This document shows positions 3,774 through 19,837 of a stretch of 30,986 bases of DNA, one piece after another. The position numbers were made by a program, and so were the translations under genes. A model generated the notes under the pieces. That model did not search any database. It was not told the DNA's origin and saw nothing but the letters and a program-made list of their open reading frames with translations. The DNA comes from a virus. The stretch lies in IMG/VR virus record IMGVR_UViG_3300048014_000077, positions 1-30,986 of that record, one strand, 5' to 3'. The stretch's first letter is position 1. Each line of letters opens with the position of its first letter.

Positions 3774-3781
3774 TACCCCTC

Positions 3782-3794
3782 TATCTAGTAGATA
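3782..3794. promoter_or_regulatory. 13-bp palindromic operator candidate
   Basis: TATCTAGTAGATA is a perfect palindrome about a central G. It lies between the -35 boxes of the two divergent promoter candidates, followed at once by ATGCAT (3794-3799). The position is ideal for a repressor that controls both arms. Which protein binds it is unknown; the tandem-HTH product at 4246-4545 or the HTH protein at 2545-3693 are candidates. Confidence 0.4.
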
Positions 3795-3808
3795 TGCATG
3801 TAGTAGGC

Positions 3809-3837
3809 TAGGCACCGCATGGGGTGTGATTTATACT
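3809..3837 (+). promoter_or_regulatory. Rightward promoter candidate
   Basis: TAGGCA (3809-3814), 17-nt spacer and TATACT (3832-3837), matching 4/6 and 5/6 of the sigma-70 consensus. The predicted start near 3844 leaves a leader of about 20 nt before ATG 3866, which fits a normal mRNA for the nuclease-terminase operon. Confidence 0.5.
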
Positions 3838-3865
3838 TGCGTGACATACATCGTGGGTAGTTTTG

Positions 3866-4249
3866 ATGGTCAACTCATGCAGAAAAGGAAAAGACGCTGA
3901 AAATGAAGTGTGCCGAATCTTATCTGAAAAACTGGATGACAAATTCACCCGCAATCGGATCGGCGTATCGGTCTGCGACGTAATAACGCCCGACTGGTTC
4001 TTATTCGCAATTGAATGCAAGAACACCAAGACCGTCCGGCTCGTTCACCTCTTTGGCAAGCCGACCAAACTGCTGCAAGACTTCTGGAAGCAAGCAAGCA
4101 GCCAGGCTGACGTTTTGAACAAATACCCACTCCTTATAGTGAAATCCGAGGGGGTGTTTATGTGTACCACGGATGGCGAGCAATGGCAGAAGCTAGAGCG
4201 CTTTTGCGACATCTACAAAGCGCAGAATCCCAAAAGGTTTCCGGCATGA
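3866..4249 (+). CDS. PD-(D/E)XK nuclease, Holliday-junction-resolvase-like
   Basis: The 127-residue protein shows the PD-(D/E)XK core: an early helix with Glu (GKDAENEV, Glu12), then TPDW (Asp43) and, seven residues later, the E-x-K triad IECKN (Glu50, Lys52), followed by a helical QASSQADVLNKYPLLIVKSEG region like the later core strand of VRR-NUC and Hjc-type enzymes. Such phage nucleases resolve branched DNA before packaging or process recombination intermediates; its place two genes before terminase fits that. It is the first gene of the rightward operon. ATG 3866 is chosen over TTG 3863; the ribosome site is weak (GGGTAG). A restriction-type role is less likely in this context. Confidence 0.72.
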   Translation: MVNSCRKGKDAENEVCRILSEKLDDKFTRNRIGVSVCDVITPDWFLFAIECKNTKTVRLVHLFGKPTKLLQDFWKQASSQADVLNKYPLLIVKSEGVFMCTTDGEQWQKLERFCDIYKAQNPKRFPA

Positions 4250-4545
4250 GGTTGATAGAAAAGGAAGTCGCCGTCATAAGGAAGCTGATTGCTCTTGGTG
4301 TTAAGCTCTCGCGCGTTGCCGAAATCTTCGACATAAGCGAAAGGCACGCACGAGCGATCAAGTCGGGGCAATGCTGGGGCGGCGAGCCGATGCAGCGCCG
4401 CTACATGCCATTGAGCACAGTGCAAGAAATACGCCAAGCCCTTGCCGCTGGCAGCCGCCAGGTTGACATTGCCGCGCAATTCAACGTAAGCCAAGCGCAA
4501 ATAAGCCGCATCAAAACTAACGCCTGCTGGGGGAAGTATAAATGA
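4246..4545 (+). CDS. Tandem helix-turn-helix protein
   Basis: The 99-residue protein consists of two similar units. The first runs VIRKLIALGVKLSRVAEIFD to AIKSGQCWG, the second VQEIRQALAAGSRQVDIAAQ to RIKTNACWG. Both hold a helix-turn-helix of the resolvase/homing-endonuclease-linked type and end in a shared K-x-x-x-CW motif. The start at 4246 is fixed by an ATGA overlap with the nuclease stop; a longer reading from 4162 would lie inside the nuclease gene. A DNA-binding role is secure in kind; it may be a regulator of this operon, bind the palindrome upstream, or act in packaging-site recognition. The duplicated CW motif is unusual. Confidence 0.7.
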   Translation: MRLIEKEVAVIRKLIALGVKLSRVAEIFDISERHARAIKSGQCWGGEPMQRRYMPLSTVQEIRQALAAGSRQVDIAAQFNVSQAQISRIKTNACWGKYK

Positions 4546-5339
4546 GCGACAAAGAAGATCTGATGAAACCCGAGTCACGCCAAGAGTACGAAGCCGATCG
4601 CGACAGGTACTATCGCAATGTGGGCTCGCCAAAAACGCCAGGTATTAGCGCTGACGACCTGCGCATCGCTGATGCGCACTTACCGCCGTTGGAACAGCGC
4701 CTGAAGCATGCTGAACGACTAGAGAAGGGATTCACTAAGACATCCCGCTCTGGTGCCTTTACAGACAAGCCGAATGCCTCTGCTGCGATATTTCCCAACG
4801 GACTCAAATTCGCTTCTGATTTTGTGGATGAGCACACACCGAAGGGTTGGAAACCGCCTGCGCCCATGAAGCCTAGACCAACCCAAGAAAAACCAACCGG
4901 AAACGCGCCCAAACCTAAAGCAATCCTGGACCGTTGCCCAAGTTGCATGGCGCCTGTAGACCCTAAAGCCTATTCTCTTGGCATGATCATCGCTGATGAC
5001 CCTGATTCATTAAAGCTACATGCTCAAGGACTAACCTTTGGCGACATCGTGCTCTACTGCCTCTGTATTCCATGCTATGAAAAAGCGAAAGAGTTGGCGG
5101 AAGAAGCCTACCCGCTCGTGCTAGTCGAGGGCGGTGAGCTTGTCCCCGAAGAAGAGGTTGCATTCGCAGTAAAATACAATAGGCCTGTTTTTGTTCACAC
5201 CGGCGCTGAGCGCACCGCCGCGCAGTTACGAATGCGCGAGAACGCAGAGCGTGTATGTCAGAACATCTGGAGATATCTAGAGCAAGAAAACCAGAAGCCT
5301 GACAGTCCCGTGTTTCTCAGACACAGGAAGGGAAGTTAA
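4542..5339 (+). CDS. Unknown protein with central cysteine motifs, 265 residues
   Basis: Residues 1-70 are charged and helical, about 100-125 form a Pro/Lys-rich linker, and then come CPSCMAP (near 132) and CLCIPCYEKAKELAEEAYP (near 173), two Cys clusters about 40 residues apart that could bind one zinc ion. The C-terminal part is acidic then basic (AERTAAQLRMRENAERVCQNIW). It overlaps the upstream gene as ATGA and has a good ribosome site (GGGGGAAG). No family recognised. Its place before the terminase genes suggests a role in DNA handling, which is inference only. Confidence 0.62.
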   Translation: MSDKEDLMKPESRQEYEADRDRYYRNVGSPKTPGISADDLRIADAHLPPLEQRLKHAERLEKGFTKTSRSGAFTDKPNASAAIFPNGLKFASDFVDEHTPKGWKPPAPMKPRPTQEKPTGNAPKPKAILDRCPSCMAPVDPKAYSLGMIIADDPDSLKLHAQGLTFGDIVLYCLCIPCYEKAKELAEEAYPLVLVEGGELVPEEEVAFAVKYNRPVFVHTGAERTAAQLRMRENAERVCQNIWRYLEQENQKPDSPVFLRHRKGS

Positions 5340-5822
5340 ATGAGAGACGACACCCGCGCCGAGGTTGTGCACGTAAGCGCCGAGGCGGTCACGCCGCCCA
5401 CGGCGGAATGGTGTGTGCAAGTGCTTGAAAATTGCGGGGGCAGTCTCTCTAAATGGCGCGATTCCTACCCCGCCAATCTCGCGCTAAACCTCGACGACGA
5501 GCAGCTTATCACCCGCACCGAGCAATGGCTGGCCAGCCTTGAGGATAAATCGCTGCTTCGTCGCTGGAACCAAGCAATCAAGCATAATCAGATTGTCCGG
5601 CTCAAACTACTGCAAAACAAAGCGCTCAAACGCATCGAATCACTCGTATCGCCCGACAACCCGGACTGGTACAAAGTCGCAAAGGAAGCGACAGCATTCA
5701 AAATGATCCTTGCGGACCTTTTAGCTGGGCAGACTTTTCAAGCAAAACAAAAACTCGTGCTTGTCGAAGAAAATAATAGCGATGACGATCCAGACTTAGA
5801 TGAGATTATGGCTGGTGCCTAA
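5340..5822 (+). CDS. terS: Candidate terminase small subunit
   Basis: The 160-residue protein lies directly before the large terminase, the standard place for the small subunit that recognises viral DNA and regulates packaging. It is helical, with an N-terminal region (WCVQVLENCGGSLSKWRDSY) that could be a winged or simple HTH, a central helix pair (LRRWNQAIKHNQIVRLKLLQ to NPDWYKVAKEATAFKMILAD) of the kind that forms the oligomerisation core, and an acidic tail (ENNSDDDPDLDEIM). Start ATG follows the previous stop at once, with AGGAAGGGAAG as ribosome site. Assignment rests mostly on position, size and helix pattern, not on a clear motif. Confidence 0.55.
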   Translation: MRDDTRAEVVHVSAEAVTPPTAEWCVQVLENCGGSLSKWRDSYPANLALNLDDEQLITRTEQWLASLEDKSLLRRWNQAIKHNQIVRLKLLQNKALKRIESLVSPDNPDWYKVAKEATAFKMILADLLAGQTFQAKQKLVLVEENNSDDDPDLDEIMAGA

Positions 5823-5825
5823 GAG

Positions 5826-7637
5826 ATGAGCAGATTCCCTCCCAAGCAAGAAAAATGGCGCAACGCCGCAAGGGCAAACCCAATCGGGTTTATCGAAAAA
5901 CGCATACGTATTGCTGATTTAATGGGACGGGAAGTTGACTTTAAGCTGAACTGGGCACAGCGCAAAGTTGCAGAGTGGAAACGCGATCTACACAAGTCCG
6001 GTAAGCCCGTGCGTGGATGGGTAACCAAGTGGCGCAGGGCTGGCGTTACACTCTACGAATCAGCCGATGGATATGCCTACGCCTACGGCACAGATAATGC
6101 CAGGTTGGGAGTGATCGCCCACTTGGAAGATCGCGCGAAGGAAATTTTGCACAACTATCGCATGTTCGACGAATCAATCGCGCGGTATCACCCCGATTTA
6201 TTGCTCGAGAAGGCGAAAGATAATATCTTCGGAATTCGCTTTGCTAAGAGTAATGCACAGGTTCTAATTGCCACAGCAGAGAACCCAATCAAAGTACGCG
6301 GCGATGGCATTCATCGACTGCACGGCTCAGAAGCTGCGCACTGGTACAATAAATTTCATTTAGTGATGAAAGAAGTGTGTCCGGTCGTGCCACCAGATCC
6401 AATGTCAGAGATTATTCTTGAATCGACTGGCTCAATCATCGGTTCGGAACCTTACGAGCATTGGATGGAAGCCGAGTTAGGCAGGAATGAGTTTGCCTCC
6501 TTGTTTCTCTGTTGGCTAGACGATCCTTCGCAAGCCATTCCTTTTGTGAGCGACAAAGAAAAACATGAGCTTTACGACAAGATCATTCAAACTGAACCGC
6601 GTCTTGCTGAGCTAAACGCGTTTTACAAGCTCACGCCGGAACAGATTAACCGCAGTTGGCAAATGTTTCACTACCAGTCAGAGAACGACTTTGACTACTA
6701 CTGTAGGGAGTTTCCGTACAACAAGCAAATGGCTTGGAGTGCAGGTGGAGACTCGTTTTTTGGCGTTTACGAGATAGGCAAAGCGCGCCCGGAAAATCCA
6801 GAGTATATTTATCTCGTTGACCAACATTACATGCGACGGTTGTTTACCGATCCAGGGCAGCTCCGCAGAGTTGATCATGTTGAGCAGTATTCGATCTTGC
6901 CTCACCTGAAGATCTGGGCGCTGCCAACGAAGGGCGCTCGGTACGTCATTGGTGGCGACAGCTCGCTTGGCGAAAGCGGAGGCGACTACTCGGCGGCTTA
7001 TCTTATTGACGTTGTGACTCGCGAAATGATGGCTTCCTATCACGGGCTACTCAGACCAGACGAAGCAGCTTGCCTAATGGTCTCGTTATGCAGAATGTAC
7101 AACAATGCTCTTGCTGCCCCCGAAACCAACCCGGCAGGCGGTGGATACGAGGCTTTGAACTGCATCCAGCGACTTGGCTATCACAATATCTATTCTTCGC
7201 GCCGCCGCGATTCCAACCAAGGGATTGAGAGCAGCAAGGCGCTTGGATGGTGGACTCATTCGAGATCCAGGCCGCTCATGTTAGGGGAGCTGCGGAAGAC
7301 TTTTATCGACGCGGTACGCAATAGAATAGCAGACCCCGGTTTATTTCGCGATCAGTCGCTGATTAATGAAATGCGCACATTCGGGATGCGAGCGGATGGT
7401 ACGCCGGGCGCCAACGCTAATTGCAAAGATGATCGCGTGATAGCTTGTGCTATCGCCCACCAGGTGGCAAACGACGAGGTGTATTGCACACTAGATGATA
7501 CGCTGTTCCAATATGCAAAATCGACAATGCCTAAGCCTGACCCAGAACAATTGATTATGAAAAGAGACCCCAACCAGGTGATATCGCGCTTCATGAGTCC
7601 CCACAGTCCGTTCAATCGAAACAAGTTTGAAATTTAG
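5826..7637 (+). CDS. terL: Terminase large subunit (ATPase and nuclease)
   Basis: The 603-residue protein is the packaging motor. An unusual Walker A-like segment TKWRRAGVT lies at 67-75. A Walker B-like segment, IHRLHGSEAAHW (162-173), carries SEAA in place of the common DE pair, as in several phage terminases. The C-terminal RNase H-like nuclease follows: GGDSSLGESGGDYSAAYLID (first Asp at 378), ETNPAGGG (Glu433) and KDDRVIACAIA (Asp535/536). Length is typical for P22-like and related large terminases. It cuts concatemeric DNA and drives it through the portal, whose gene lies 1.6 kb downstream rather than adjacent. The start ATG is 3 bases after the previous stop. Confident. Confidence 0.93.
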   Translation: MSRFPPKQEKWRNAARANPIGFIEKRIRIADLMGREVDFKLNWAQRKVAEWKRDLHKSGKPVRGWVTKWRRAGVTLYESADGYAYAYGTDNARLGVIAHLEDRAKEILHNYRMFDESIARYHPDLLLEKAKDNIFGIRFAKSNAQVLIATAENPIKVRGDGIHRLHGSEAAHWYNKFHLVMKEVCPVVPPDPMSEIILESTGSIIGSEPYEHWMEAELGRNEFASLFLCWLDDPSQAIPFVSDKEKHELYDKIIQTEPRLAELNAFYKLTPEQINRSWQMFHYQSENDFDYYCREFPYNKQMAWSAGGDSFFGVYEIGKARPENPEYIYLVDQHYMRRLFTDPGQLRRVDHVEQYSILPHLKIWALPTKGARYVIGGDSSLGESGGDYSAAYLIDVVTREMMASYHGLLRPDEAACLMVSLCRMYNNALAAPETNPAGGGYEALNCIQRLGYHNIYSSRRRDSNQGIESSKALGWWTHSRSRPLMLGELRKTFIDAVRNRIADPGLFRDQSLINEMRTFGMRADGTPGANANCKDDRVIACAIAHQVANDEVYCTLDDTLFQYAKSTMPKPDPEQLIMKRDPNQVISRFMSPHSPFNRNKFEI

Positions 7638-7695
7638 CCCAATCAACTACACAGTATAGAGTGCATGGTATGAGTACGAGCAGGAGTAATAGAGA

Positions 7696-8493
7696 GTGAG
7701 CAAAAACATAGAGAAACTGAAGGCGGTAATGCCCGCGACGATGAAAGCGATCGGTAAGGCGGCGCGACAAGGGGATATCCCGAATATCTCGACGCAGCCT
7801 GTGATTGAGACAAAGCCGTTCAATAGCCATCAATTTGAGGGTAATTTCCGCGATCAAGCAGGGCTGACAGCGGAGCATTTGAACCTGGCGGCGGCGCATA
7901 TCAGCGGAGCGAATCAGGAGTTGCGGCAGTTGCGGTCTGAATTTGCTGAGCAGGCAAGCCAGTTAGCGCGCTTGGAGCTCCCCGACACACAGGTGATGGT
8001 TGATGGACACAAGATAGAGGTGCCATTCCACGTGAAACAGTATGCCATTGACCTTGATCAAGAGAAGTACATGCGCATTATGTGGGGCTTGCTCGGTGCA
8101 GAGCGCATTTTAGACTTCCAGAAGCATGCTACCAAGAGCAATCAGAACAACACGCCAGCACTTTGGCTCAATCAGGCAATTCAGATTGAGGTAAAAAAGC
8201 CCTACGTGTACCAGATACGCCAGAACGTAGGGCAGAAGATCAAAGACGAAGGGATGGACAATATTACGCCAGAACTCGCGCAGACTGCCAGCAACTATCT
8301 GCATATGGCACTGGGTTCAACTTTGCACGGACAGTTAACGCACATCGCCAGCACGCAGGATTTATCGATCCTGACGGTGTTTGTGATCATCGTGGATGAG
8401 ATCCTGAGATCGCGCGGAGTGCAGAGCGTACCGGTCGTGGCAAGCAGCCTGTGGGCCAACCCGTTTGGTGAAGATGCGGAGGAAGCAAGCTAA
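7696..8493 (+). CDS. Unknown protein between terminase and portal, 265 residues
   Basis: Start is GTG with AGGAG 9 nt upstream. A 58-base gap separates it from terminase and holds only a tiny 9-codon frame. The product has a charged start, a helical coiled-coil-like part (QELRQLRSEFAEQASQLARLE, about 75-95), and a central mixed region with VDGHKIEVPFHVKQYAIDLD and many Gln/Asn. A hydrophobic strand pair (LSILTVFVIIVDEIL) lies near 225-240. I do not recognise it. It could be a virion or packaging accessory protein because of its position. It ends with a TAATG overlap. Confidence 0.62.
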   Translation: MSKNIEKLKAVMPATMKAIGKAARQGDIPNISTQPVIETKPFNSHQFEGNFRDQAGLTAEHLNLAAAHISGANQELRQLRSEFAEQASQLARLELPDTQVMVDGHKIEVPFHVKQYAIDLDQEKYMRIMWGLLGAERILDFQKHATKSNQNNTPALWLNQAIQIEVKKPYVYQIRQNVGQKIKDEGMDNITPELAQTASNYLHMALGSTLHGQLTHIASTQDLSILTVFVIIVDEILRSRGVQSVPVVASSLWANPFGEDAEEAS

Positions 8494-8636
8494 TGGAGCT
8501 AGCTATCTTCACTTGGGTAGTCGTCACGCTGTCGCTGTGCGTTGTGTTCAAAATGTTCAAGCATTTTGAAAGACGTGCAAAGAAGCGCAGTAAGGCGATT
8601 TTGAAGCGCATCAAGCGACTGGGGGTTAAGAAATAA
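8493..8636 (+). CDS. 47-residue membrane microprotein with basic tail
   Basis: A short frame linked on both sides by TAATG overlaps, with GGAGGA as ribosome site. The first 20 residues form one membrane helix (LAIFTWVVVTLSLCVVF). The rest is strongly basic (FERRAKKRSKAILKRIKRLG). One helix plus a cationic tail is the shape of small holin- or pinholin-like proteins and of some phage inner-membrane effectors; no family is recognised. It is followed by a second membrane-anchored gene, so the pair may form one module. Confidence 0.62.
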   Translation: MELAIFTWVVVTLSLCVVFKMFKHFERRAKKRSKAILKRIKRLGVKK

Positions 8637-9004
8637 TGGAATGCATTGCGTTGATGTGGGCAGGTGTGGCGCTGTCTCTGATTGGCGTGTGGCTTATCGA
8701 GTGGCGCTACGACTCTTTGAACCAGAAGCGATCAGATGAATTGCAGCGGTGCCTCGATAGTCTTCGTAGAAGCGGTGCGGCTTCACTTGCGATGTTGCTC
8801 GACTACGAGCAAATGCGTGAAGAACTCAACCTGTACCACGAAGCAAAGCTCCTACCAGCGCTGCGAATGCTTGCTGCCCAACGGACAGAGCCACAGCCGG
8901 AACCGCAGCCCGAGCCAGAACCGTCCAGACGTAGTGGTGCGCGCGAGCCGCTGAGTGCTGAAGAGATCGAAAACCTCTACGACAAAGTGAAGGCAGCATA
9001 CTGA
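8636..9004 (+). CDS. Membrane-anchored protein with PEPQ repeat
   Basis: The 122-residue protein starts with a membrane segment (about residues 3-22, LMWAGVALSLIGVWLIEW), then a helical, partly coiled-coil part (RSDELQRCLDSLRRS, MREELNLYHEAK), then a Pro/Glu/Gln repeat near 84-96 (EPQPEPQPEPEP), and a short acidic helix at the end. N-in or N-out topology is not clear. The shape (membrane anchor, coiled coil, Pro-rich linker) recalls inner-membrane spanins and other envelope-spanning proteins, but no outer-membrane partner is seen. It overlaps the upstream gene as TAATG. Confidence 0.6.
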   Translation: MECIALMWAGVALSLIGVWLIEWRYDSLNQKRSDELQRCLDSLRRSGAASLAMLLDYEQMREELNLYHEAKLLPALRMLAAQRTEPQPEPQPEPEPSRRSGAREPLSAEEIENLYDKVKAAY

Positions 9005-9256
9005 ATGAGCGACGATGACATCTGGGGATTAAACGATGACGAGGTGTTGCGTCTAGCAAGACTTGGCAAACTTGTCGAAGCCATGCCACCGGGTCACTTT
9101 ATAGGAAGGGAATACCCTATACCTCATGCTGCTGACAAAGAGTGGGACTACTGCAAGGTGGACAAAGGTGAATACATCAACCTTGGAACTGGTTTTACGG
9201 CAGCCGAAGCTCTAATGAACGGCGGTTGTGAGTTGGCTGCGCGAAGGAGAATCTGA
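9005..9256 (+). CDS. Unknown small acidic protein before portal, 83 residues
   Basis: Begins MSDDDIWGLNDDEVLRLARLG, a helical acidic start, then an aromatic middle (EWDYCKVDKGEYINLGTGFTAAEALMNGG). The ATG follows the upstream stop at once (TGAATG), and the end overlaps the portal start as TGATG. The middle part resembles small phage proteins of a hydrolase- or lyase-accessory look, but I cannot name it. Tight coupling to the portal suggests co-expression with virion genes. Confidence 0.58.
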   Translation: MSDDDIWGLNDDEVLRLARLGKLVEAMPPGHFIGREYPIPHAADKEWDYCKVDKGEYINLGTGFTAAEALMNGGCELAARRRI

Positions 9257-11196
9257 TGACACTGGAAATTTCTCTAAACACGCGTATCAACTGGGACGAT
9301 GTGAAACGTTTCACGCCAGATCTCTACGATGAGTATTGCAATGCGCCTCTATGGGAAATTGATTCCCCTGATTTCACTTGTGCCGAGGATTACCACGGCT
9401 ACTACACAGCATTTGGGCAGCAGCTGGTCCAGGCAAGCAAGTCGATCATTGGCAGATGGCAGATGCGCGGCAAAGAAGCGGCGCAAGCCGCAGAAAGAGC
9501 GCTGAATCCCAGTTTGCCGGTATTCGACTTCCAAAGCGCAGTATCAGAGGAACCATTGCCTATTGCAGTGGCGCAAATCCACGAGAAAGTAGCGCTCCTA
9601 AGCTCTAATCCGCCGCGTCCTATTGCCATGCCTCAGCAAGAAAGCCAGGGCGAAGAGGTAGCAGCGCTTAACCAGCTCATGGACATGGTCTATGAAGACA
9701 ATAACTGGCCCATTGTTTGTTCAAAGAGCCACTATGACATCCAATTCTGGAACGCCGCTTGCCTGCGCTGGACAATTGACCAGTTTTCGCCCGGCGTGCC
9801 AGGTGTTGAGGCAAAAATCACCCTCGATAAAGTCTCAATGGATGATATTTTCCCCGATCCCAAGGCAAAAGAGCTGGACTGGCGCTATATGGACTATTGC
9901 GTGCAAAAGCACGTCATGGAGATAGGCGAAATCCAGTCGCAGTACCCACTCATGGCTAGTTTGGTCAGCGCCAGCTCTGATGAGGTCATTTCGGATACGT
10001 CAGTCACCTCGCGCAATAATGAGGATTATGTGCAGTCCCCACAGCCGAAGATGGCGCGCGATGCAGCAGGCAGAAGGCAAAAGATCACCGTGCTTGAGGT
10101 GTGGCTCAAGGACTCGCGCACCAAATTTGAGCCATTGCTTGTGGAGGGCGCCAACAATAAGCCCTACAAAGAGCGATTCAAGCTCGATGAAGACGGGTTT
10201 ATCATAGGCAACTGGGTGCCGCGCTATCCAGACGGCAGAGTGCTCATAATGACCGGGGATGTGGTTCTAATGGACAGTGCCAATCCATTCCCGCATGGTC
10301 AATTTCCGTTTGTCTTCCCGATCGGCAATCCTTCAAATGTGTGGTATTCGGAAGGTGATGCCATGCGCATCATGACTGTTACCCGCAAATTCAACAACAT
10401 CACAAGCGCTATCCACAGGTTTTACCAGTCGGAAGTGTTGCGCCCGATGCACTGCGATGCCGGTGCACTAATGGACCCGAATCTACAACAACAAGTGCCT
10501 AATGACGTCACATTCATTCTTGAACTGTCACCAGGCAAGTCACTCGCTCGACCGCCAGCCACTGATGTTCCCCCCGCTGTCTACACGTACGTACAACTAC
10601 TTCAGAGTATGATCGACTTGACATCTGGCTCAAGTGGGGTAATGCGTGGGCAGATAAGCGATGGTGCGCAGTTGTCGGCAGAGGCGCTTAGCTCATTACA
10701 GCAGTTTGCATCCTCGCGCTTGGCACTGTCAGCCACATTCTTTAATGCTGCCATCCGCCAACTAGGCTACCAATTAATGTGGATACTACGCGGCATAGCA
10801 AAAGAAAAAATCAAAGTGACGATTACGATGCCTGATGGTAGCCCTAAGGTTATCGATTGGGAGTCCGACCGCAAGATCTTTGAGAAGGGCGACCCGATAG
10901 CCATTCGCAATCTCAGACGCGCCGAAGACTATCTGATGACAATCAAGGCCGGTACCGGCAAGCCAGGCGCTCAAGACCAGCAGCAGGCACAATCGCTTCA
11001 ATTGTTCAAAGACAACGCTATTGACCGCGACGCATTGCTTGAAAACCTTCAGTATCCGAATAGGCAAGCGATCGGTCCACGTATGCGCGCTAAAGAGTTG
11101 GAAGACCTCAGGACGGCAGCAGAAGGGCGCGCAATCGGCATGTCGGTTGCTACCGCGCTCAAAGAAGACAATCCTGGGAAAAAGAAAAAAAGCTAG
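9256..11196 (+). CDS. Portal protein, P22-like
   Basis: The 646-residue product has portal signs: a long helical entry (SKSIIGRWQMRGKEAAQAAERALNP), a run like KVSMDDIFPDPKAKELDWRYM typical of P22-type portals, the hallmark PHGQFPFVFP near 350-360, and the crown/stem helices around LTSGSSGVMRGQISDGAQLSAEALSSLQQFASSRL with long helices after it. It ends with a Lys tail (GKKKKS). It forms the 12-subunit ring through which DNA enters and leaves the head. AAGGAG precedes the ATG. Of note, the capsid and scaffold genes that normally follow are on the other strand 15 kb away. Confidence 0.88.
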   Translation: MTLEISLNTRINWDDVKRFTPDLYDEYCNAPLWEIDSPDFTCAEDYHGYYTAFGQQLVQASKSIIGRWQMRGKEAAQAAERALNPSLPVFDFQSAVSEEPLPIAVAQIHEKVALLSSNPPRPIAMPQQESQGEEVAALNQLMDMVYEDNNWPIVCSKSHYDIQFWNAACLRWTIDQFSPGVPGVEAKITLDKVSMDDIFPDPKAKELDWRYMDYCVQKHVMEIGEIQSQYPLMASLVSASSDEVISDTSVTSRNNEDYVQSPQPKMARDAAGRRQKITVLEVWLKDSRTKFEPLLVEGANNKPYKERFKLDEDGFIIGNWVPRYPDGRVLIMTGDVVLMDSANPFPHGQFPFVFPIGNPSNVWYSEGDAMRIMTVTRKFNNITSAIHRFYQSEVLRPMHCDAGALMDPNLQQQVPNDVTFILELSPGKSLARPPATDVPPAVYTYVQLLQSMIDLTSGSSGVMRGQISDGAQLSAEALSSLQQFASSRLALSATFFNAAIRQLGYQLMWILRGIAKEKIKVTITMPDGSPKVIDWESDRKIFEKGDPIAIRNLRRAEDYLMTIKAGTGKPGAQDQQQAQSLQLFKDNAIDRDALLENLQYPNRQAIGPRMRAKELEDLRTAAEGRAIGMSVATALKEDNPGKKKKS

Positions 11197-11204
11197 GGGG
11201 CGCC

Positions 11205-11486
11205 TTGAAACAGGTACTTTTAGCGTTAATCTGGGCTGTATTTGCGACAATCGCAGCGTTTGCCCAACAGCAAAACACCATCATCTATGTGATGCCAGGC
11301 GAGAGCATACCGCGCACTCATGCCGTTGTGCTTGTTCACGGTGTCGCCTACAATGCCGATCCGACCAATGCGGCGCACCAAGGCAAAGTACCAGCAATAT
11401 TATGTGGGTGCAGGTGGCGCGCTCAGCACAAGCCCTACGGCACCAGGGGCTGTATGGTCGCAGTACATAGGTTATGCCCGATCTAG
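11205..11486 (+). CDS. Signal-peptide N-terminal part of a fibre-like gene (frame changes downstream)
   Basis: From TTG 11205 (GGGGG 4-5 nt upstream) the frame encodes a classical Sec signal peptide (MKQVLLALIWAVFATIAAFA, cleavage expected after AFA), then QQQNTIIYVMPGES and a plausible exported domain up to about GKVPA (near 11390). After that the reading becomes Cys/Arg-rich noise (LCGCRWRAQHKP), while the +1 frame gives good fibre-like sequence (QYYVGAGGALSTSPTAPGAVW). So the real product most likely joins this part to the ORF ending at 12081. The junction lies near 11385-11400. A one-base insertion, a sequencing error or a programmed +1 frameshift could explain it. Confidence 0.6.
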   Translation: MKQVLLALIWAVFATIAAFAQQQNTIIYVMPGESIPRTHAVVLVHGVAYNADPTNAAHQGKVPAILCGCRWRAQHKPYGTRGCMVAVHRLCPI

Positions 11487-12081
11487 TACGCTCCTTGAGC
11501 TAAACACAACCCAGGTCGTTTCAGCCAGTGGCAGCGCTGCTGTGCAAAGCGTGACTGGCAACGGCACTGTTACCGCATCACCAACAACCGGCAATGTTGT
11601 GATCGGCTTGCCAACTACAACAGTGACACCAGGAAGTTACACAAATACCAATCTGACAGTTGATGCTTATGGAAGGCTGACCACAGCAAGTAGCGGCGGT
11701 TGCGGCGGAAGTGGCCCAGGCGGCTGTGCAAACCAAATGCAATATAACAATGCCGGCACATTTGGTGGCATAGGTAACGGCACGGCAGGTCAGATCATGA
11801 CCAGCCAAGGCGCCTGTAGTGCGCCACATATGGCTGCAAATGCTGCACTCAATGCTTCCAATATTAGCTCCGGTACATTGCCAGCTGCACGATTACCCAA
11901 GCCCACAGGCACAACCCTGGGTGGTATAGAGAGCGGGTGCGCTCCTTCTCACCAGTTGATGAGTGGCGTAAGTGGATGTGGTGTGCCGCAATTTGGCACG
12001 CTGCCTAAGCCCACTACTAGCGCTCTAGGCGGTATAGAGGCAATCAACGGCATTAGTCATGAGTGGGTCAACTCTATTTAG
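11320..12081 (+). CDS. Fibre-like C-terminal part of the frame-changed gene
   Basis: Frame +1 relative to the signal-peptide ORF. Meaningful sequence starts near 11390 and holds VVSASGSAAVQSVTGNGTVT, then the common phage fibre module SYTNTNLTVDAYGRLTTASSG, a Cys/Gly stretch (GGCGGSGPGGC), MQYNNAGTFGGIGNG and two LPKPT...LGGIE repeats near the end. These are typical of tail fibre or receptor-binding stems. The same SYTN...DA.GR..TASSG module occurs in the fibre gene at the right edge of the window. The end is followed by the small Cys-rich gene. Host binding is the usual role; the exported N-terminus makes that role uncertain here. Confidence 0.65.
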   Translation: MPLCLFTVSPTMPIRPMRRTKAKYQQYYVGAGGALSTSPTAPGAVWSQYIGYARSSTLLELNTTQVVSASGSAAVQSVTGNGTVTASPTTGNVVIGLPTTTVTPGSYTNTNLTVDAYGRLTTASSGGCGGSGPGGCANQMQYNNAGTFGGIGNGTAGQIMTSQGACSAPHMAANAALNASNISSGTLPAARLPKPTGTTLGGIESGCAPSHQLMSGVSGCGVPQFGTLPKPTTSALGGIEAINGISHEWVNSI

Positions 12082-12091
12082 AGTAAATATT

Positions 12092-12385
12092 ATGTCTCAC
12101 ACAGAAATTGAAATCATGCAGATGCGAGCCAAGAGAGATGAATTGCTTGATTGCAGCGCAATGCAATGTCAGCCCTGTTGGTTCTATCGTTACGAGCCGG
12201 ATGAGTGGCACTTGCGCCGCAAGCATCAATGTCCACTATGTGAGGGTTGGCGATCATTCTGTGAGTCATGTTTCACGGATCACCACGAAGGCGGCTGGAA
12301 CTCGTGCAATCACAATCCGAATGATAGCAGCGGTCCTCGTAAGTGCCCGAGATGGCATCCACTATGTAGAGAGGCGATGAAATGA
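12092..12385 (+). CDS. Cys/His-rich small protein
   Basis: A 97-residue product with many metal-ligand residues: CQPCW, CPLCEGW, CESCFTDHH, then CNH and CPRWHPLC. At least four CxxC-type pairs in about 70 residues suggest two zinc sites of RING or treble-clef type. The frame extends upstream to 12059, but that start would overlap the fibre gene; ATG 12092 is chosen though it lacks a clear ribosome site. It ends with an ATGA overlap. Function unknown; zinc-binding phage proteins often bind host proteins or nucleic acids. Confidence 0.6.
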   Translation: MSHTEIEIMQMRAKRDELLDCSAMQCQPCWFYRYEPDEWHLRRKHQCPLCEGWRSFCESCFTDHHEGGWNSCNHNPNDSSGPRKCPRWHPLCREAMK

Positions 12386-12696
12386 GCGAGACTGAGAAGG
12401 ACATCGAAACTGTAGCCTGTCGAATGGTCGGCATGAACGAACAGCACGCATTGGAGGCGTGGACAAATCTACTGCACCTCGCGCGCCTTGGCGATGCCGT
12501 CGAGGCGAACCATCACCGGCTAGTCTATGCGGTGCGCAAGGCTTACTTCGCCCTGAAGGATAGCAAGGAACTTGATTATCGGGCATCTTGCGAATGCGCA
12601 ATCGGTTGGATCGAGACTGTGAAAGACCTGCTCGACTCCGCCACGCCAGCAGAAGCACTCGCCGCGCTCACGCACAAGGAGGACGGGAATGGCTAA
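12382..12696 (+). CDS. Unknown helical acidic protein, 104 residues
   Basis: A helical protein (HALEAWTNLLHLARLGDAVEA, LVYAVRKAYFALKDSKELD) with a closing SATPAEALAALTHKE. It starts by an ATGA overlap with the Cys-rich gene, with GAGGCGATG as ribosome site. Of similar look to the 83-residue protein at 9005-9256 only in size and acidity. No family recognised. Confidence 0.55.
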   Translation: MSETEKDIETVACRMVGMNEQHALEAWTNLLHLARLGDAVEANHHRLVYAVRKAYFALKDSKELDYRASCECAIGWIETVKDLLDSATPAEALAALTHKEDGNG

Positions 12697-12793
12697 ATGC
12701 TACACGGCAATCAATGGTGAAATCACGGTCAGGGTCTACGCCTTAGTCGAACACGATGAGGACGAGCACATCTCCGACGAATATGACAAGTAA
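12689..12793 (+). CDS. 34-residue microprotein with strong ribosome site
   Basis: ATG 12689 follows AAGGAGG by 6 nt, one of the best ribosome sites in the window, and opens a 34-codon frame beginning MAKCYTAINGEITVRVYALV and ending in an acidic tail (EHDEDEHISDEYDK). It overlaps the upstream gene by 8 bases and the next by 11. The β-strand-like front with acidic tail recalls small phage inhibitors or DNA-mimic-type proteins only loosely. Function unknown. Confidence 0.55.
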   Translation: MAKCYTAINGEITVRVYALVEHDEDEHISDEYDK

Positions 12794-13001: not shown

Positions 13002-13304
13002 TTATTTTTTAGCCGCAAGGTACTCATGGGCTGTTTTAAATGCGTACGCTGACACAAGCGCCAGCGCTGGGCCCATGAAATTATTCAGAAATGCCTGCCC
13101 CTTGACTGGTTCTTGCAACGCCAAGATTGAGATTATCACTACAAAGAAAACGAAGCCCACAGCTAACACTACGAGCACATTTGCATAGCCACGAGCCATG
13201 ATTAAAGCGATCTGGGTCTTAGCTCCCACAGGATCACAAAGGCAACCGCGATCGCCGTCAGGCTGTATACAACAATCTGACTTTCCATTATCATCGTCAG
13301 ACAT
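13002..13304 (-). CDS. Two-helix membrane protein, holin candidate
   Basis: The 100-residue product has a Cys/Asp-rich front (SDDDNGKSDCCIQPDGDRGCLC), one strong membrane segment (VLVVLAVGFVFFVVIISILAL), a short loop, a weaker second one (FMGPALALVSAYAF) and a basic tail (AAKK). Size and layout fit phage holins, which permeabilise the inner membrane at lysis. It is the last gene of the long virion operon, a common place for lysis genes. ATG 13304 is taken because it lies 4 bases after the upstream stop. A shorter start at an ATG inside (MARGYANV...) is possible. Confidence 0.55.
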   Translation of the reverse strand: MSDDDNGKSDCCIQPDGDRGCLCDPVGAKTQIALIMARGYANVLVVLAVGFVFFVVIISILALQEPVKGQAFLNNFMGPALALVSAYAFKTAHEYLAAKK

Positions 13305-13308
13305 AACA

Positions 13309-13554
13309 CTAGCGGCTGTCCATCTTACGATCGCCGCGCTTGATCGACATGTTCTTAGAGGTAGACATGCCAGCCCGGACGCCACGGCTCATCACGTCAG
13401 CGTTGCCAGAGCTCCATTCTGGACCGTCTGTAAGGTTGCCAGTCGGAAGCACGTTATCGATGGGTCCGCGGCCGTCGTTGCCGCCCATGCTGCCCATTCT
13501 GCCTACGCTTCGGACTTCTCCAACTGCATTAAGATCGCCAAACGAGTCTGACAT
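13309..13554 (-). CDS. Unknown Gly/Asp-rich small protein, 81 residues
   Basis: A low-complexity, probably flexible protein (GRMGSMGGNDGRGPIDNVLP, then WSSGNADVMSRGVRAGMSTS) ending very basic (IKRGDRKMDSR). A strong GGAGG precedes ATG 13554. It lies between the large internal virion protein and the holin candidate. Composition fits a minor virion component. No family recognised. Confidence 0.58.
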   Translation of the reverse strand: MSDSFGDLNAVGEVRSVGRMGSMGGNDGRGPIDNVLPTGNLTDGPEWSSGNADVMSRGVRAGMSTSKNMSIKRGDRKMDSR

Positions 13555-13556
13555 TT

Positions 13557-13643
13557 TTACCTCCGGCGTTCTTGCCGCTTAGTGTCTGCTTTTTTTGTAC
13601 TCTTGGGAGCCAAGAGATCCATGATGTTATCTTTTCTTGCCAT
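13557..13643 (-). CDS. 28-residue basic microprotein
   Basis: ATG 13643 with GGGAG upstream opens a 28-codon frame beginning MARKDNIMDLLAPKSTKKAD and ending QERRR. The last codons and stop (AGG TAA) provide the ribosome site for the next gene, so the two are coupled. Short basic proteins of this kind are found next to virion genes in many phages; no function is known. It is below ordinary length cut-offs. Confidence 0.5.
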   Translation of the reverse strand: MARKDNIMDLLAPKSTKKADTKRQERRR

Positions 13644-13709
13644 ATTGCGGGCTCCCACTCGATTGATACTCTGGAATAAACTTACTATATTCTGGCGTCG
13701 ATGGCAATA

Positions 13710-16700
13710 CTACTTCTGCGCGAGACTGGCGGCATCAAGCGGCTCAGGCGCCGTGGCGCCGAGCTTGTTAGCGGCGTTAGCGGCATAGACGGCTTGTTGG
13801 AATGCACGCGGCCTGACGCCAGGGGTGCGCGCGGCAAGCTCGAGCAGTGCGTCAGTTTGTGCTTCAGCGTCAGCGGCGGCTTGCGTCTGTCCTGGCAGCG
13901 GCTCGTACTCCACCACTTTTGATGGCGTGACCATAGAGCGACCAAGACCGCCCCACGGTGATTCTTGTCGCACGGTGAATTCTTTGTTGGCGACATCCGG
14001 CCAGTATTTGACTGCATCGCGCACCCAGCGTGTTGGTATGCTGGCGCCAAATACTTGCAGTTTAGGGAACAGCAGTCCGACAGCGCTTATGCTAGCCACT
14101 AATGCATTCTGTCCTTTCTTCACATCAGCATCGGCTTTTGATCCGGTGGTGAATGTGGTTGGATCGCCAGAGCCGAGCGCTTCGGTCATCTTTGAGATGC
14201 TGGCGCCACCAGACATAACATCCTTGAATGCTTCTATGGCGTCGTCGATACCAGGCGTGCGCTGCCCCATGATGGGCGCGATTATAGGGTCCCACCTGCC
14301 GTGCTCGCCAAGGTTGCCGAGTGTCCGCAAGCCGAGGCTGAGCGAGTCTATGGCATCAGCAACTTGGGCTGTCGCTTGCGCAGTATACTGCGATGACATC
14401 AAGGCGCCATAGGCAGTCACTGGGATAAGTGCCCTAGCGCCGCCGTATTGTGCCTTGACGGCAAGCGCATGAGCGATTCTGCCGAGTAGTTGCAATGCCA
14501 GTGCGAACTTACCTTCATTGTAGAATTGCGCCGCCATCTGTAGATTTAGCTTGATCAAGCGCTGCTCGATCATCATGTAGCGCGTGTACTTGAAGATGGT
14601 TGCTCCTTTTAGGGAGCGTTCCCAACCGAGCTTGTTTAGCCCGCTTGGATCGGAGCCTGTCATACGCGCCACATCTAGTGCCACTTCAGACCAGAGTTTA
14701 TCGGCGTGCACATCTGGGAGCTTGTGAGATAGCGCTTTCTCGGCAAAGTCAGTAGCAGATGTCACGCCCATGTGTTGCAACTGCTCAGGGCTTGAATTCT
14801 GGTAATACTTGTTCAGGGCAGCAAGTGTGGCTAGCTGGTTATGTACAAGCTCCACGCCAAACGGATTGGCTTTTTGGTCGAGTTCCTGCGCTACCTCAGT
14901 AGCTGCCCCGCCAATATCCAAGCGCTGCACTAGTCCGCGCAATATCGGGCTGCCGGCGAACTGTCCGTAAGCCGCGTACACCGATGGTACACCGACTTGC
15001 ATACCGCCGTAGGCTGCCATGTCATGCAACCATGCAACGGTAGCAATCTTCCAGTTCAAAGTGAAGTTGAAAGCGGCAGCGCGGTGAAAGACTTGGTGAA
15101 GAATGTAATCGGCAGCCGTCATCGGCTCAGCTTTGCCATTGAAAGCCTTATCTGCATTATGCACCGCATTGCGTATTTCAAGCGTATTGAGTTGATCAGC
15201 TTTGCTCAGCGCATGATAGCCCTCGTCAAACTCCCGGCGGTACTGTGCTACGTGAGTGGCAATATCATCACGCAGTTGCGACACTTCAGCGGCAAATTTG
15301 CGCCCTTGCGGCGTCAATACAGCTAGAGCGTCAGGATCGCCTTGTAGCGCGCGCGCCATTGCACCATGGGCATCCGGCAGCAAGTGCGCTTGGAATAGCT
15401 TGCCGCGATACTCATTGAGTGCATCGCCCAGAGATTCCACTTCGGTCAGCGGCGTACCACCACGAAAGTTAGCCATCATGTCATCAGCCATACGCGACAA
15501 CTCTTGCGTGTCTTCGTACAGGAAATGGAAAATAAAACTGTAGTGAGAAGCAATGTATCGCGCGCCTGCCGGCCCAAATTTCTTAGCGAGAATAGCACCT
15601 GCTACAACGAGTGGTAGCTTCGCCTGATCCCAGATGTTTTGCTCAGGAGTGTTATTGTCATCCAGTCCAGCTGCGTGTGCCGGTGCGCCACCAAATGCAT
15701 TGACGCCAAGGGCTGCAGCAAGTAACAGCGTCTTGCTTGTCGGATGGATGATGCCAGCCTTAGACAACGCTTTCAACGCAGCTGGTGCGGTGACGCGCCC
15801 GTTATGCGCGACATCGTATGCAACCTTCTCTTTCAGGTTGCGCTCAACCGCCCTAATGCCTTGCTCGATCTCTTTATAGCGTGCAAGATAACGTCCGGCA
15901 AGATGAGCAACTGATGGATTGTATTGCAGTTGTACCGTCATATGTGTGCTTGACGGTCCAAACTTCTCGTTCTGAATGACATGACGCACTGCTGTTGGTG
16001 TGCCGATATGAGCATCCATCTGTTCAAACAATGGTTGATGCCGCTCACGCAATGTCTTCAAGTGCTTCTCGGCGTTGAGCAGTAATCCATTGGCAGTCTC
16101 GGCTTGCTTGGCAGCTTCTGTGAAAGTGTCGGCGAGCGGCTCAAGTTCAGTTTTGAGAGCCTTTCTATCGGCTGTCACGTTCAAGTGCTTTTTCGATGAC
16201 AGCTCAAGATCGCGCAGCGGGTGTGTCATGGCTTGCAGCTTGTGCTGCTGTTCAAACAGATAGGCACGCACTTTACTGAGTGTGCCGCCAGCGGTTGTAG
16301 TCAGTTCTTTCGTTACTTCTTTATTGACGCGACGCAAGTCGGCTGGCGTGCTTGCGAGCTTAAGAGCGTTCTCCGCATAAGCGGCCACTTGATTTTTGAG
16401 ATGCTGTACGGCTGCAGCTGTCTCGCCAATCTCTTCCACCGCGCCCTTAAGTTGCGCTGCCATTTCTGGTGACAGTTTCTTCATTACACGTTCTAGCGGT
16501 GTGCCATTGTAAGCGCGCTGATAGCCACGCCTCTGCACGACGCCACGCACTTGCGGCGCTGGCGCTTGGGGTTTGACGATTTGACCATCTTTTACCTTGA
16601 GCTTAGGTAATGGTTGTTTCCCGATATTACTCAAATAGGCCTGTTCGCCAGGGGTGGGAAGCTCGCGATCCAAACCTCTGAGTATCTCTATCTGCTTTCT

Positions 16701-17792
16701 GCCTATGGCAGTAGTTGGCGCAGTAGCAGCTTGTAGTGCTTGCTGAGCTTTAGCCAGAGATGCGGCTTCACTCTTAATGATTTGCGATTCGATATCAGCG
16801 ACAAACTTATGCGGGTCAAAGCCGAGCCGCTTGGCTAGGTCCTGACCGCGACTGATCACATTGCGAGCAGCTGAGCCTAAAGCTTTTCCAACAACAGGAG
16901 CGGCAGCCGAGCCGATAGCGCTGAATCCCGCACCAAGAGCAGCTGAGCCAGCCAAGTCGCCAACGCTTGCCTTCTTTCCTTTGCGTACAGCTTCGCGGGC
17001 AGCCGCACCCATACCTGCCACTGCGTTTTCTGCTGCGCCGGTTGCTGCTGCCGTAGCTGCCACAGCCGGAATTCCTGCGCCGGTTGCTGCTACTCCAGTA
17101 GCGCCAGCCAGCGAGCCTGCACCATACGTGCCCACCTGGCCAGTGACATCACCCGCCTTGTACTCAGGCGACTGCTGCACTTCTTGCGGCACTTCATGTT
17201 CAGCTTGCCAGTCAGGCAACTCTTGCTCTTTCGTGACTTGCCCGAGCAAGCGATCCTTGAGCGACATAGCCTGTGCGCCGACAGTCGCAGCCCCATGCTG
17301 AGTGCCCAAGATGAACTTTTCAAGGCTTGTGAATGGTGTCTGCCCTTCTTTTGCCCAATACTCCGCTTCCAGGCTAGGAGCAGATGGCACCGCCGGTGGT
17401 GCAGGTGTATTCGCCATATCCCTGAGCGTGTCGAGCGCGCGGCTTGGCGCAGGAGTGGCAAGGTTTTCGTGCGGTTGAGGAAACGGTACCATAGGTATAG
17501 GCGCAGGCATAGCAGGAGCAGCTGTAGGTGTGGGTGGCTGCTGCGCTGGCTGCTGTCCAGAGCCTGGTATTATTGGTGGTTGTTGGTATGTCTCTGCCGC
17601 CTTTGTTACTAGCCCGCCAGCTAATGGCTGTCCAGCGCTAGAGGCAGGTACTTCTCCTGGCTGCGGCGGTGCTAACGGATCTATTTTTGGTGTTTCTGTT
17701 TGCTGTGAAGGCGCAATACCGGCTGTGGCTGCTTTCTCCAAGCCGTCCACGCTGTCATTGAGCATGTCGACATCGCTAGCCCCATTGCTCAT
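13710..17792 (-). CDS. Very large internal virion / DNA ejection protein candidate
   Basis: A 1360-residue protein. Residues 1-140 are Pro/Gln/Ala-rich and probably disordered; about 215-315 is a Gly/Ala-rich, weakly hydrophobic stretch (GAGSLAGATGVAATGAG and repeats of it); then long helical parts with heptad-like runs (e.g. near 490-650), and a second hydrophobic patch near 705-725. A long, helical, Ala-rich protein with membrane-active patches is the shape of T7 gp16- or P22 gp16-type ejection proteins, which leave the head and help DNA cross the envelope. No lytic transglycosylase motif is evident. AGGAG precedes ATG 17792, which overlaps the upstream stop as ATGA. Confidence 0.68.
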   Translation of the reverse strand: MSNGASDVDMLNDSVDGLEKAATAGIAPSQQTETPKIDPLAPPQPGEVPASSAGQPLAGGLVTKAAETYQQPPIIPGSGQQPAQQPPTPTAAPAMPAPIPMVPFPQPHENLATPAPSRALDTLRDMANTPAPPAVPSAPSLEAEYWAKEGQTPFTSLEKFILGTQHGAATVGAQAMSLKDRLLGQVTKEQELPDWQAEHEVPQEVQQSPEYKAGDVTGQVGTYGAGSLAGATGVAATGAGIPAVAATAAATGAAENAVAGMGAAAREAVRKGKKASVGDLAGSAALGAGFSAIGSAAAPVVGKALGSAARNVISRGQDLAKRLGFDPHKFVADIESQIIKSEAASLAKAQQALQAATAPTTAIGRKQIEILRGLDRELPTPGEQAYLSNIGKQPLPKLKVKDGQIVKPQAPAPQVRGVVQRRGYQRAYNGTPLERVMKKLSPEMAAQLKGAVEEIGETAAAVQHLKNQVAAYAENALKLASTPADLRRVNKEVTKELTTTAGGTLSKVRAYLFEQQHKLQAMTHPLRDLELSSKKHLNVTADRKALKTELEPLADTFTEAAKQAETANGLLLNAEKHLKTLRERHQPLFEQMDAHIGTPTAVRHVIQNEKFGPSSTHMTVQLQYNPSVAHLAGRYLARYKEIEQGIRAVERNLKEKVAYDVAHNGRVTAPAALKALSKAGIIHPTSKTLLLAAALGVNAFGGAPAHAAGLDDNNTPEQNIWDQAKLPLVVAGAILAKKFGPAGARYIASHYSFIFHFLYEDTQELSRMADDMMANFRGGTPLTEVESLGDALNEYRGKLFQAHLLPDAHGAMARALQGDPDALAVLTPQGRKFAAEVSQLRDDIATHVAQYRREFDEGYHALSKADQLNTLEIRNAVHNADKAFNGKAEPMTAADYILHQVFHRAAAFNFTLNWKIATVAWLHDMAAYGGMQVGVPSVYAAYGQFAGSPILRGLVQRLDIGGAATEVAQELDQKANPFGVELVHNQLATLAALNKYYQNSSPEQLQHMGVTSATDFAEKALSHKLPDVHADKLWSEVALDVARMTGSDPSGLNKLGWERSLKGATIFKYTRYMMIEQRLIKLNLQMAAQFYNEGKFALALQLLGRIAHALAVKAQYGGARALIPVTAYGALMSSQYTAQATAQVADAIDSLSLGLRTLGNLGEHGRWDPIIAPIMGQRTPGIDDAIEAFKDVMSGGASISKMTEALGSGDPTTFTTGSKADADVKKGQNALVASISAVGLLFPKLQVFGASIPTRWVRDAVKYWPDVANKEFTVRQESPWGGLGRSMVTPSKVVEYEPLPGQTQAAADAEAQTDALLELAARTPGVRPRAFQQAVYAANAANKLGATAPEPLDAASLAQK

Positions 17793-19837
17793 GGTTGTGC
17801 TCCTGCGGCTTTTGCTATTGCATCTTGAGCCTCTTTGTTAACGAGCGCCTTGAAAGCTTGTGCTTCTGGCGTATTTGCCGCCGCTACGCCTTTTGTTGCA
17901 TTCAACTTTTGGGCTAATGTTCCCATTGTCTTAGCGAAACCTTGCCTTTGTGTTTGCTCTTCCCTTCGCTCCTTTATGATAGCTTCAAGTGTCAAGCGTT
18001 CTTCTTTCTCCGCGGCCAGCTTCTTCATGGCAGCTGCTGCATCTTCCTGCACTTGATCTCTATGCGCTTGCTGCGCACTGCGATTAATCGACTCAGCCAA
18101 GCTGAGTTCTGCTGCATTGGATTTATCAAGAGCGTCCTGTACTTCGATCTTACTTTTAATGGCAGCTTCTAGTGCCATACTGCTGTCATTGTTGATCTTT
18201 GCTACTTCTTGGGCTGCGGTAATAAGCCTCTCTTGCCAGTGTTGTCGTTCCTGAATGACTTGATTTGCCCCAGTCAACATTCTGTCGGTTGTAGCAGCAG
18301 AAGCATCAGCGTTAGCACGAAGATTGTTGATGACACTCTGTTTGATTACGGTGGGTAAGGTAGCACGCTCGGTCTCGTAGTTGCCTCTAAGCGCGTCACC
18401 TTGAGCTGGAAATTGTTGCGAGATGCGTGCGGCAGCCTTTTCCTTATTGTCGATAAGACCGTTGACTACTTTCATTATTGCATCATCGTTTGCGCCGTTC
18501 TGCACTTCGATGGCGGCGGCGTTCATAGCCTGCTCGCGGTCATGCATCATCATCGCAGTGTCGCGCTGATGGAGAGCAAATTGATAACGCGACATTGGCG
18601 TGCCATCAGGTCCGCGCAGTTCTGGAATGGGTGTATCGAAGTTTGCCAGCATCTTTTTTAAAGGTAGGGCAACCTGCGCCTTGAAACGGTTTTGCGCTGC
18701 TTTAAGTTCATCACGAGCGCTATTAAACTCCTTTTGCAGTAAGTCCGCGCGAGCAATATTGTTAGGAATGTCTGTGTTTATCTTGTCAATTATCTGCGCG
18801 GTGATATCGAACAAAGCGGCTTTGCGAGCATCCTCTTGTTTTTCTGCTTGAAGATCGGCAAGGGCCTTAGCAAGATCGGCTTGGGCTTTGGCTAGCTCGT
18901 CTGCGTGTGCCTTGACCTGAGCGTGCGCATTCTTGGCTCTTTGTATCTGCTCAGCGTGTGGTGACGCGCCTGTGAGGGCTGCTATTTGGGAGCCATTAGG
19001 CGGCACACTCCTTAAGTTGTTTGTGAGTGGTGGTGCCGGAACTATCCCTGGCGGATTCGATTGTACCTGTGCAGCTGGCGGCGGCTGTGTCTGCGGGTAC
19101 GACTGCGGTTGTTGCCCACGGGTTTGCGGTCCAGCGGTCGTTGTGCCTATAGCTGGCGGCGGTGGATTGCTAGCAATAGCTTGGCCGCCGGCAAGTGCCC
19201 CAGGCGGTCCAAAACCAGCCGGTGCTGCCGCTGTTGTCGGCGGGATATTGCCAGCCACACCAGACATGCCGGATGCACCGGGTACGCCTGGCACGTTGCC
19301 TGCATTCATACTGACGCCACCTTGCAGTGGTGCGCCTTGTCCATTGCTTAGAGTTGGCGCAGCACCACCCGTGTTTGACACTGGCGCGCCTTGCAGTTGG
19401 GCAGCGCCTTGCGCGTACGCAAGTGCATTGGCTGGCGCAGTATAGGTCGCCGTAGAATAAGGATTGTTAGCCGTGTTGCTGCTGGTATTGCTCAAGCTAG
19501 GAGCGTTTGGCGTAGTAGCAGCAGGTAGAGGCGTGCTTGAGGTGGGTGGCAATGGAGCTGCGCTAGGTGCCACGACTTGAGCAGGCGCAGCTGGCAACTG
19601 TACTGACGTTGGTGCTGTCGGCGCTGCCGCTGTCGGGGCTGCGTTTGGTCCATAACCTGGAAGCCAAGTTACGGTTACAGGACCAAGAGGGTAGGTACTG
19701 GTAGAACCATGTCCCGTTGGAGCAGCAGACAAACCTGGATCAACCGTGTTGACCTCATTGGTCATCAAATACGGTGAGATATTTGCAAGCGATGTGCTTA
19801 CCTGGTTGTCGGAAATATCACCTGTTAGAAACACCAT
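17789..19837 (-). CDS. Internal virion protein candidate: disordered front, coiled-coil body
   Basis: The 682-residue product is very rich in Pro, Ala, Thr and Asn up to about residue 280 (many runs such as PTAAAPTAPTSVQLPAAPAQ), then becomes a long helical coiled-coil region (AKAQADLAKALADLQAEKQED and on to about 665). This two-part design, with the next gene as partner, fits an internal or ejection protein set. The start follows GGGAGG. Its first base overlaps the last base of the upstream stop. No enzyme motif is seen. Confidence 0.65.
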   Translation of the reverse strand: MVFLTGDISDNQVSTSLANISPYLMTNEVNTVDPGLSAAPTGHGSTSTYPLGPVTVTWLPGYGPNAAPTAAAPTAPTSVQLPAAPAQVVAPSAAPLPPTSSTPLPAATTPNAPSLSNTSSNTANNPYSTATYTAPANALAYAQGAAQLQGAPVSNTGGAAPTLSNGQGAPLQGGVSMNAGNVPGVPGASGMSGVAGNIPPTTAAAPAGFGPPGALAGGQAIASNPPPPAIGTTTAGPQTRGQQPQSYPQTQPPPAAQVQSNPPGIVPAPPLTNNLRSVPPNGSQIAALTGASPHAEQIQRAKNAHAQVKAHADELAKAQADLAKALADLQAEKQEDARKAALFDITAQIIDKINTDIPNNIARADLLQKEFNSARDELKAAQNRFKAQVALPLKKMLANFDTPIPELRGPDGTPMSRYQFALHQRDTAMMMHDREQAMNAAAIEVQNGANDDAIMKVVNGLIDNKEKAAARISQQFPAQGDALRGNYETERATLPTVIKQSVINNLRANADASAATTDRMLTGANQVIQERQHWQERLITAAQEVAKINNDSSMALEAAIKSKIEVQDALDKSNAAELSLAESINRSAQQAHRDQVQEDAAAAMKKLAAEKEERLTLEAIIKERREEQTQRQGFAKTMGTLAQKLNATKGVAAANTPEAQAFKALVNKEAQDAIAKAAGAQP

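Follow-up and report, generated by a model that had tools for sequence, protein, structure and literature searches.

Gene content of the locus

The window analyzed here spans an entire IMG/VR virus record (30,986 bases). It contains a fibre-like gene that opens with a predicted Sec signal peptide, changes frame, and ends early; the TTG start of its signal-peptide ORF lies 8 bases beyond the stop of a portal gene. The features of this region, and the other window genes referred to below, are as follows.

5826-7637: terminase-like gene
9256-11196, + strand: P22-like portal protein gene (PF16510, E 7.5e-22; phrog_156, E 1.1e-32)
11195-11200, + strand: Shine-Dalgarno-like AGGGGG, 4 bases ahead of the TTG start
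11205-11264, + strand: predicted Sec signal peptide, MKQVLLALIWAVFATIAAFA, score 3.98
11283-11390, + strand: first third of a phage fibre domain (PHROG 4368 type) in frame 0, matching L039; HMM positions 18-53
11391-11394, + strand: frame change/junction; about 32 domain residues (HMM positions 54-85; roughly 95 nt, of the form 3k+2) absent
11395-11499, + strand: last third of the same PHROG 4368-type domain in frame 1; phrog_4368 positions 197-234, HMM positions 86-118
11500-12078, + strand: fibre shaft repeats with 5 cysteines, ending inside the module LGGIEAINGISHEWVNSI (12025-12078); module homology to L069, E 1.6e-19
12092-12385, + strand: cysteine-rich small protein, the next gene downstream, with a homologue in the relative G005
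21600-22520, - strand: ordinary virion fibre of this phage, without signal peptide or cysteine, N-terminus conserved in relatives
26681-27733: major head protein (MCP) gene

The extent given to the fibre-like feature in the initial annotation, 11205-12081, was correct, and the next gene starts 10 bases past its premature end. Five relatives of the phage, all podoviruses, were retrieved by capsid, portal, and terminase searches; a TerL scan for further relatives returned the same five and distant fragments only, and no MCP homologues were found in bacterial genomes or cultured phages. The capsid-to-holin block of the window (13002-30850) is on the minus strand and the terminase and portal region (3863-12700) on the plus strand, whereas the two are codirectional in all five relatives. 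This arrangement is either a real inversion or a misassembly, and the junction carries no inverted repeats of note. No lysis gene was recognized among the window ORFs, and this absence, together with the inverted late block, indicates that the contig is probably incomplete. Several repeats were also observed: at the left end (region 1-325), a 101-nt direct repeat whose copies at 50-150 and 225-325 are identical and a three-copy 50-nt repeat, and a 108-nt tandem duplication, 99% identical, at 19892-20107 within the ORF 19837-20658.

Signal peptide

The ORF at 11205-11486 (+) has a TTG start, no earlier start in frame, and an anti-Shine-Dalgarno pairing energy of -9.3, the same as that of the MCP gene. 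Its N-terminus reads MKQVLLALIWAVFATIAAFA followed by QQQN, with a lysine in the n-region, a hydrophobic core, and A-F-A before the predicted cut. The signal score of 3.98 was obtained with a simple, home-made scheme rather than SignalP, and by the same measure 15 of 387 control ORFs had 3.5 or more. The classical signal peptide proposed in the initial annotation thus appears convincing, given this score and the strong ribosome site. The predicted cut falls between AFA and QQQ, and no lipobox cysteine is present there.

Frame change and missing domain segment

By codon statistics trained on the other window genes, frame 0 is favoured until about 11373-11391 and gives way there to frame 1, which is favoured as far as 12081. 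This confirms that the coding frame of the fibre-like gene changes; the passage to the +1 frame lies at about 11376-11400. Frame 0 has a stop at 11484, and no stop interrupts frame 1 between 11293 and 12079. SYTN..L..DAYGR and LPKPT..LGGIE, the fibre-type motifs of the initial annotation, occur in this second (+1) frame.

Intact homologues of the first part were sought with the short motif G.AY.AD..N..H, and L039 was found to carry the complete domain. The first part and L039 share 40% identity over 37 amino acids, with a score that was reached by none of 2,000 shuffles. L039 and L038 were assigned to PHROG 4368 and PHROG 30025, and the second part alone matches PHROG 4368 at positions 197-234. 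When both parts are joined with a 32-residue gap, they align as one stretch with phrog_4368 positions 129-234 (E 7e-5, versus 2e-3 ungapped). In a six-homologue profile, the window parts occupy positions 18-53 and 86-118, and the approximately 32 intervening residues, which all six aligned homologues of this domain of about 108 residues possess, are absent. The loss of about 95 nt explains a frame shift of the 3k+2 type. Of 37 cultured-phage records, 34 contain at least 80% of the domain, and its usual neighbours are tail or virion genes. An AlphaFold model of the domain from two sequences had a pLDDT of 36 and was discarded.

Truncation at the 3' end

The gene carries a second lesion. The segment LGGIEAINGISHEWVNSI corresponds to the front half of a shaft module whose sequence in other proteins is LGGVES.AAVTH.WINSISTSGVP..QPAF.DISG. 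All 62 module instances in other proteins continue for at least 40 amino acids, whereas in the window a stop follows directly after LGGIEAINGISHEWVNSI. These two independent lesions, an internal deletion and a 3' cut, point to a decaying gene. A close relative of the joined protein, or a near-identical intact copy, was found neither in viral contigs nor in cultured phages; a weak early match to a Klebsiella tail fibre was rejected as a chance match after its translation had been read.

Signal-bearing fibres in related podoviruses

Signal-bearing fibres adjoin a lysis gene in two of the five relatives, G002 and G004. (i) G004 encodes a 1,501-residue fibre-like protein starting MQLLLSRLLAFFLCVLCTLPAFA, which is preceded by a 134-residue signal-bearing protein and followed by a third one; all three are downstream of a glucosaminidase-type lysis gene. 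(ii) G002 encodes a 685-residue fibre starting MKRLLTLFLCLLLTSPACA and a 116-residue signal-bearing partner. (iii) In G003, the partner protein has its own start and no signal, and the upstream region offers no coding room for one. The absence of the signal from relatives, which would have spoken against an exported fibre, was therefore encountered in part: two relatives have the signal, and a third has the same small partner without it. In a BLAST alignment, the similarity of the G002 and G003 partners sets in at residue 20 of the G002 protein, where the cut is predicted, so that export signals behave as modules gained and lost on the same protein. Upstream of the fibre next to the lysis gene, a partner of about 95 residues is encoded in G003 (6958-7257), G002 (30833-31183), and G004 (27560-27964), with a signal in two of them.

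The virion fibre of this phage group is encoded by a gene separate from the signal-bearing window gene. Its N-terminus, MAFITLPFPTF..QVNSNNA, is absent from the window protein, where a signal peptide stands in its place. The window's virion fibre (21600-22520) is partly similar to the signal-bearing fibre of G004 and has the same kind of shaft repeats. It contains no cysteine in 306 residues, versus 5 in the approximately 272 residues after the signal of the window copy. Neither the G004 fibre nor a Bdellovibrionales relative had a match in sequence searches against solved structures.

Survey of signal-bearing fibres

An alignment of the shaft module was used as the survey query and retrieved 55 viral and 13 bacterial loci, although some of the IMG/VR contigs may include bacterial islands. 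Statistics were calculated on 55 distinct, uncut fibre-like proteins, with 387 neighbouring frames treated by the same procedure as controls. At a score of 3.0, a signal-like N-terminus was found in 36 of the 55 fibre-like proteins and in 29 of the 387 controls; this 65% rate is not that of phage fibres in general, because the query module came from a signal-bearing fibre. At 3.5, the counts were 28/55 and 15/387 (odds ratio ~26, p ~1e-18). A positive n-region and an A-x-A cut motif recur consistently in many unrelated copies.

The cysteine content of the signal-bearing fibres is 1.26%, compared with 0.76% for the others (p = 0.005; p = 0.01 for viral proteins only), as expected for proteins that fold in an oxidizing compartment. 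Cysteine pairs within the LGG[VI]E module were not seen as a source of this enrichment in the module sampled, and the signal-bearing fibres of L048 and L089 have no cysteine. In five proteins (L049, L051, L060, L070, and L082), the mature sequence begins with C.GQ.....CGN..A...P, which places two cysteines directly behind the signal; this shared N-terminus may mark a subfamily.

A genuine phage context was established for several of these genes. The L048 copy is flanked by phage genes (TerL, portal/head-tail adaptor), that of L052 is preceded by an MCP gene, and those of L049, L080, and L095 neighbour tail, baseplate, or virion genes. Hallmarks of tailspikes were identified as well, namely, a Peptidase_S74 chaperone in L083 and, in L057, a pectate lyase fold with End_N_terminal (endosialidase N-extension). 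Signal-bearing fibre-like proteins are also encoded by the annotated phages MW202444 and BK063671. In the latter (L034), a phage assigned to Methanomicrobiales, three consecutive structural-looking genes at 3338-7957 bear signals that look bacterial-type.

Taken together, the association of signal and fibre is general in the survey, and the signal-bearing fibres of G002 and G004 are unbroken, so that the exported fibre-like protein proposed at the outset is supported as a prediction. The window gene has the composition of this class, a Sec-type signal followed by the phrog_4368 halves and LGG[VI]E modules, but its frame is incomplete owing to the internal deletion and the truncation.

Alternative explanations

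Three causes had been considered for the frame change: decay, an error of one base, and a programmed +1 shift. Decay gives the best fit, with about 32 residues missing and the 3' end cut mid-module, and the other two options leave the missing residues unexplained. The gene could be intact in the real phage and make the full exported fibre, its lesions being an assembly or indel error of the contig. The incompleteness of the contig, the late block inverted with respect to five relatives, which could signal misassembly, and the exact 101-nt repeats at its left end are in line with such an error. However, the loss of about 95 nt combined with a mid-module stop exceeds a one-base error, and the junction lies within coding sequence where no repeat family of that size occurs, so that we consider an intact gene unlikely. 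The deletion itself could be an assembly artefact, but an assembly scar is less likely than a remnant formed by deletion and 3' truncation. A programmed +1 frameshift with two products, one short and exported and the other a long fibre, would be compatible with both frames being open across 11293-11484, and yet the joined protein would be without some 32 conserved domain residues, no known +1 shift sequence was seen by eye, and the signal-fibre relatives are unbroken; we give this mechanism hardly any credence. The existence of two small genes, one for a signal-peptide peptide and the other for a fibre fragment started independently at the ATG at 11320 in the second frame, is very improbable, since codon statistics do not favour that frame before about 11373 and both pieces fit one domain in order.

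A different objection concerns the signal itself. The hydrophobic N-terminus might be an uncleaved anchor that holds the fibre to the virion or to the host membrane rather than a secretion signal; their domains identify the proteins as phage fibres, which normally function on the virion. Against this stand the positive n-region and the A-x-A cut motif, both found consistently across many unrelated copies, the cysteine enrichment, and the fact that homology begins at the predicted cut, and an anchor appears rather doubtful.

Proposed role

We therefore favour, with reasonable but limited confidence, the reading of the window feature as a decayed gene for an exported phage fibre, whose intact relatives would be exported late and released at lysis. 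Its sequence basis comprises the signal, the two lesions, the class to which the relatives appear to belong, and the cysteine enrichment of that class, and from it we infer the export, timing, release, and role of the fibres. In the ancestor, a Sec signal would have replaced the virion-anchoring N-terminus and been followed by the phage fibre domain and a cysteine-containing shaft of repeat modules. The central part of the domain would then have been lost through a deletion of about 95 nt, which would also have put the sequence behind it out of frame, and a further lesion would have cut the 3' end inside a shaft module. The window gene would now yield just a short exported fragment of about 73 residues after the signal.

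The intact relatives would be synthesized late, pass through Sec to the periplasm, fold there, possibly with disulfide bonds, and be released with the virions at lysis. Late expression is suggested by the lysis-gene neighbours in G002 and G004 and by the portal gene upstream in the window. Release at lysis fits these late-operon and lysis-gene neighbourhoods better than an early superinfection block, a role that we favour less. Because the signal takes the place of the virion anchor, the usual route of attachment is presumably not open to the fibres. We favour free fibres that, once outside, would bind surface polysaccharide or degrade it, although they may instead attach to virions at a late stage.

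The assembly of fibres is taken to happen on the virion, within the cytoplasm. The proposed class of exported phage fibres is apparently widespread in environmental phages and apparently undescribed; no description of signal-bearing phage fibres as a class was found in a literature coverage that was incomplete, with few subscription journals and preprints. In a broader reading, to which we give about an even chance, many tailed phages of soil and freshwater would have a second fibre set with a Sec signal in place of the anchor. These fibres would be secreted and disulfide-stabilized, with signals acquired and lost as modules, and they would either act off the particle, by polysaccharide clearing, receptor occupation, or debris glueing, or, after maturing in the periplasm, join virions at lysis. 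If such a class is common, phages would routinely send binding or degrading proteins of fibre type across the envelope of the host, which would bear on receptor competition, on the clearing of polysaccharide, and on the prediction of host range from fibre genes. The window copy, as a remnant, matters mainly as a pointer to this class.

Comparison with known systems

PblA and PblB of the Streptococcus mitis phage SM1 resemble tail fibres and gain access to the surface of the host. They are not known to have a signal peptide, their surface access is tied to lysis proteins, and the host is Gram-positive. Superinfection-exclusion lipoproteins such as T5 Llp and Cor are phage-encoded exported envelope proteins; they are small, expressed early or from the prophage, and not known to have a fibre shaft. 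The window protein, unlike them, has no lipobox. WceF of Pantoea stewartii is an exported tailspike-like trimer that acts on exopolysaccharide, but it differs from the window protein in its Tat signal, bacterial gene, and beta-helix enzyme body (PMC7949094).

The nearest described proteins are the fibres of the mosaic adhesive trimer (MAT) superfamily of Bdellovibrio, in which a signal peptide precedes phage-tail-fibre-like shafts that are displayed on the surface (PMC10769870). MATs are bacterially encoded, share a beta-rich domain of about 130 residues after the signal, and end in some cases in an S74 chaperone (PMC10769870). The window protein did not match the N-terminal domains of L103 and L104, which represent this post-signal domain (best E 0.089, outside the N-terminus). 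Unlike MATs, it has a phage fibre domain after the signal and is located in a phage. The likeness between the two is apparent from the shaft-module scan, which matched Bdellovibrionales genomes, and exported phage fibres, if they exist as proposed, would provide a phage source for bacterial exported fibres such as the MATs.
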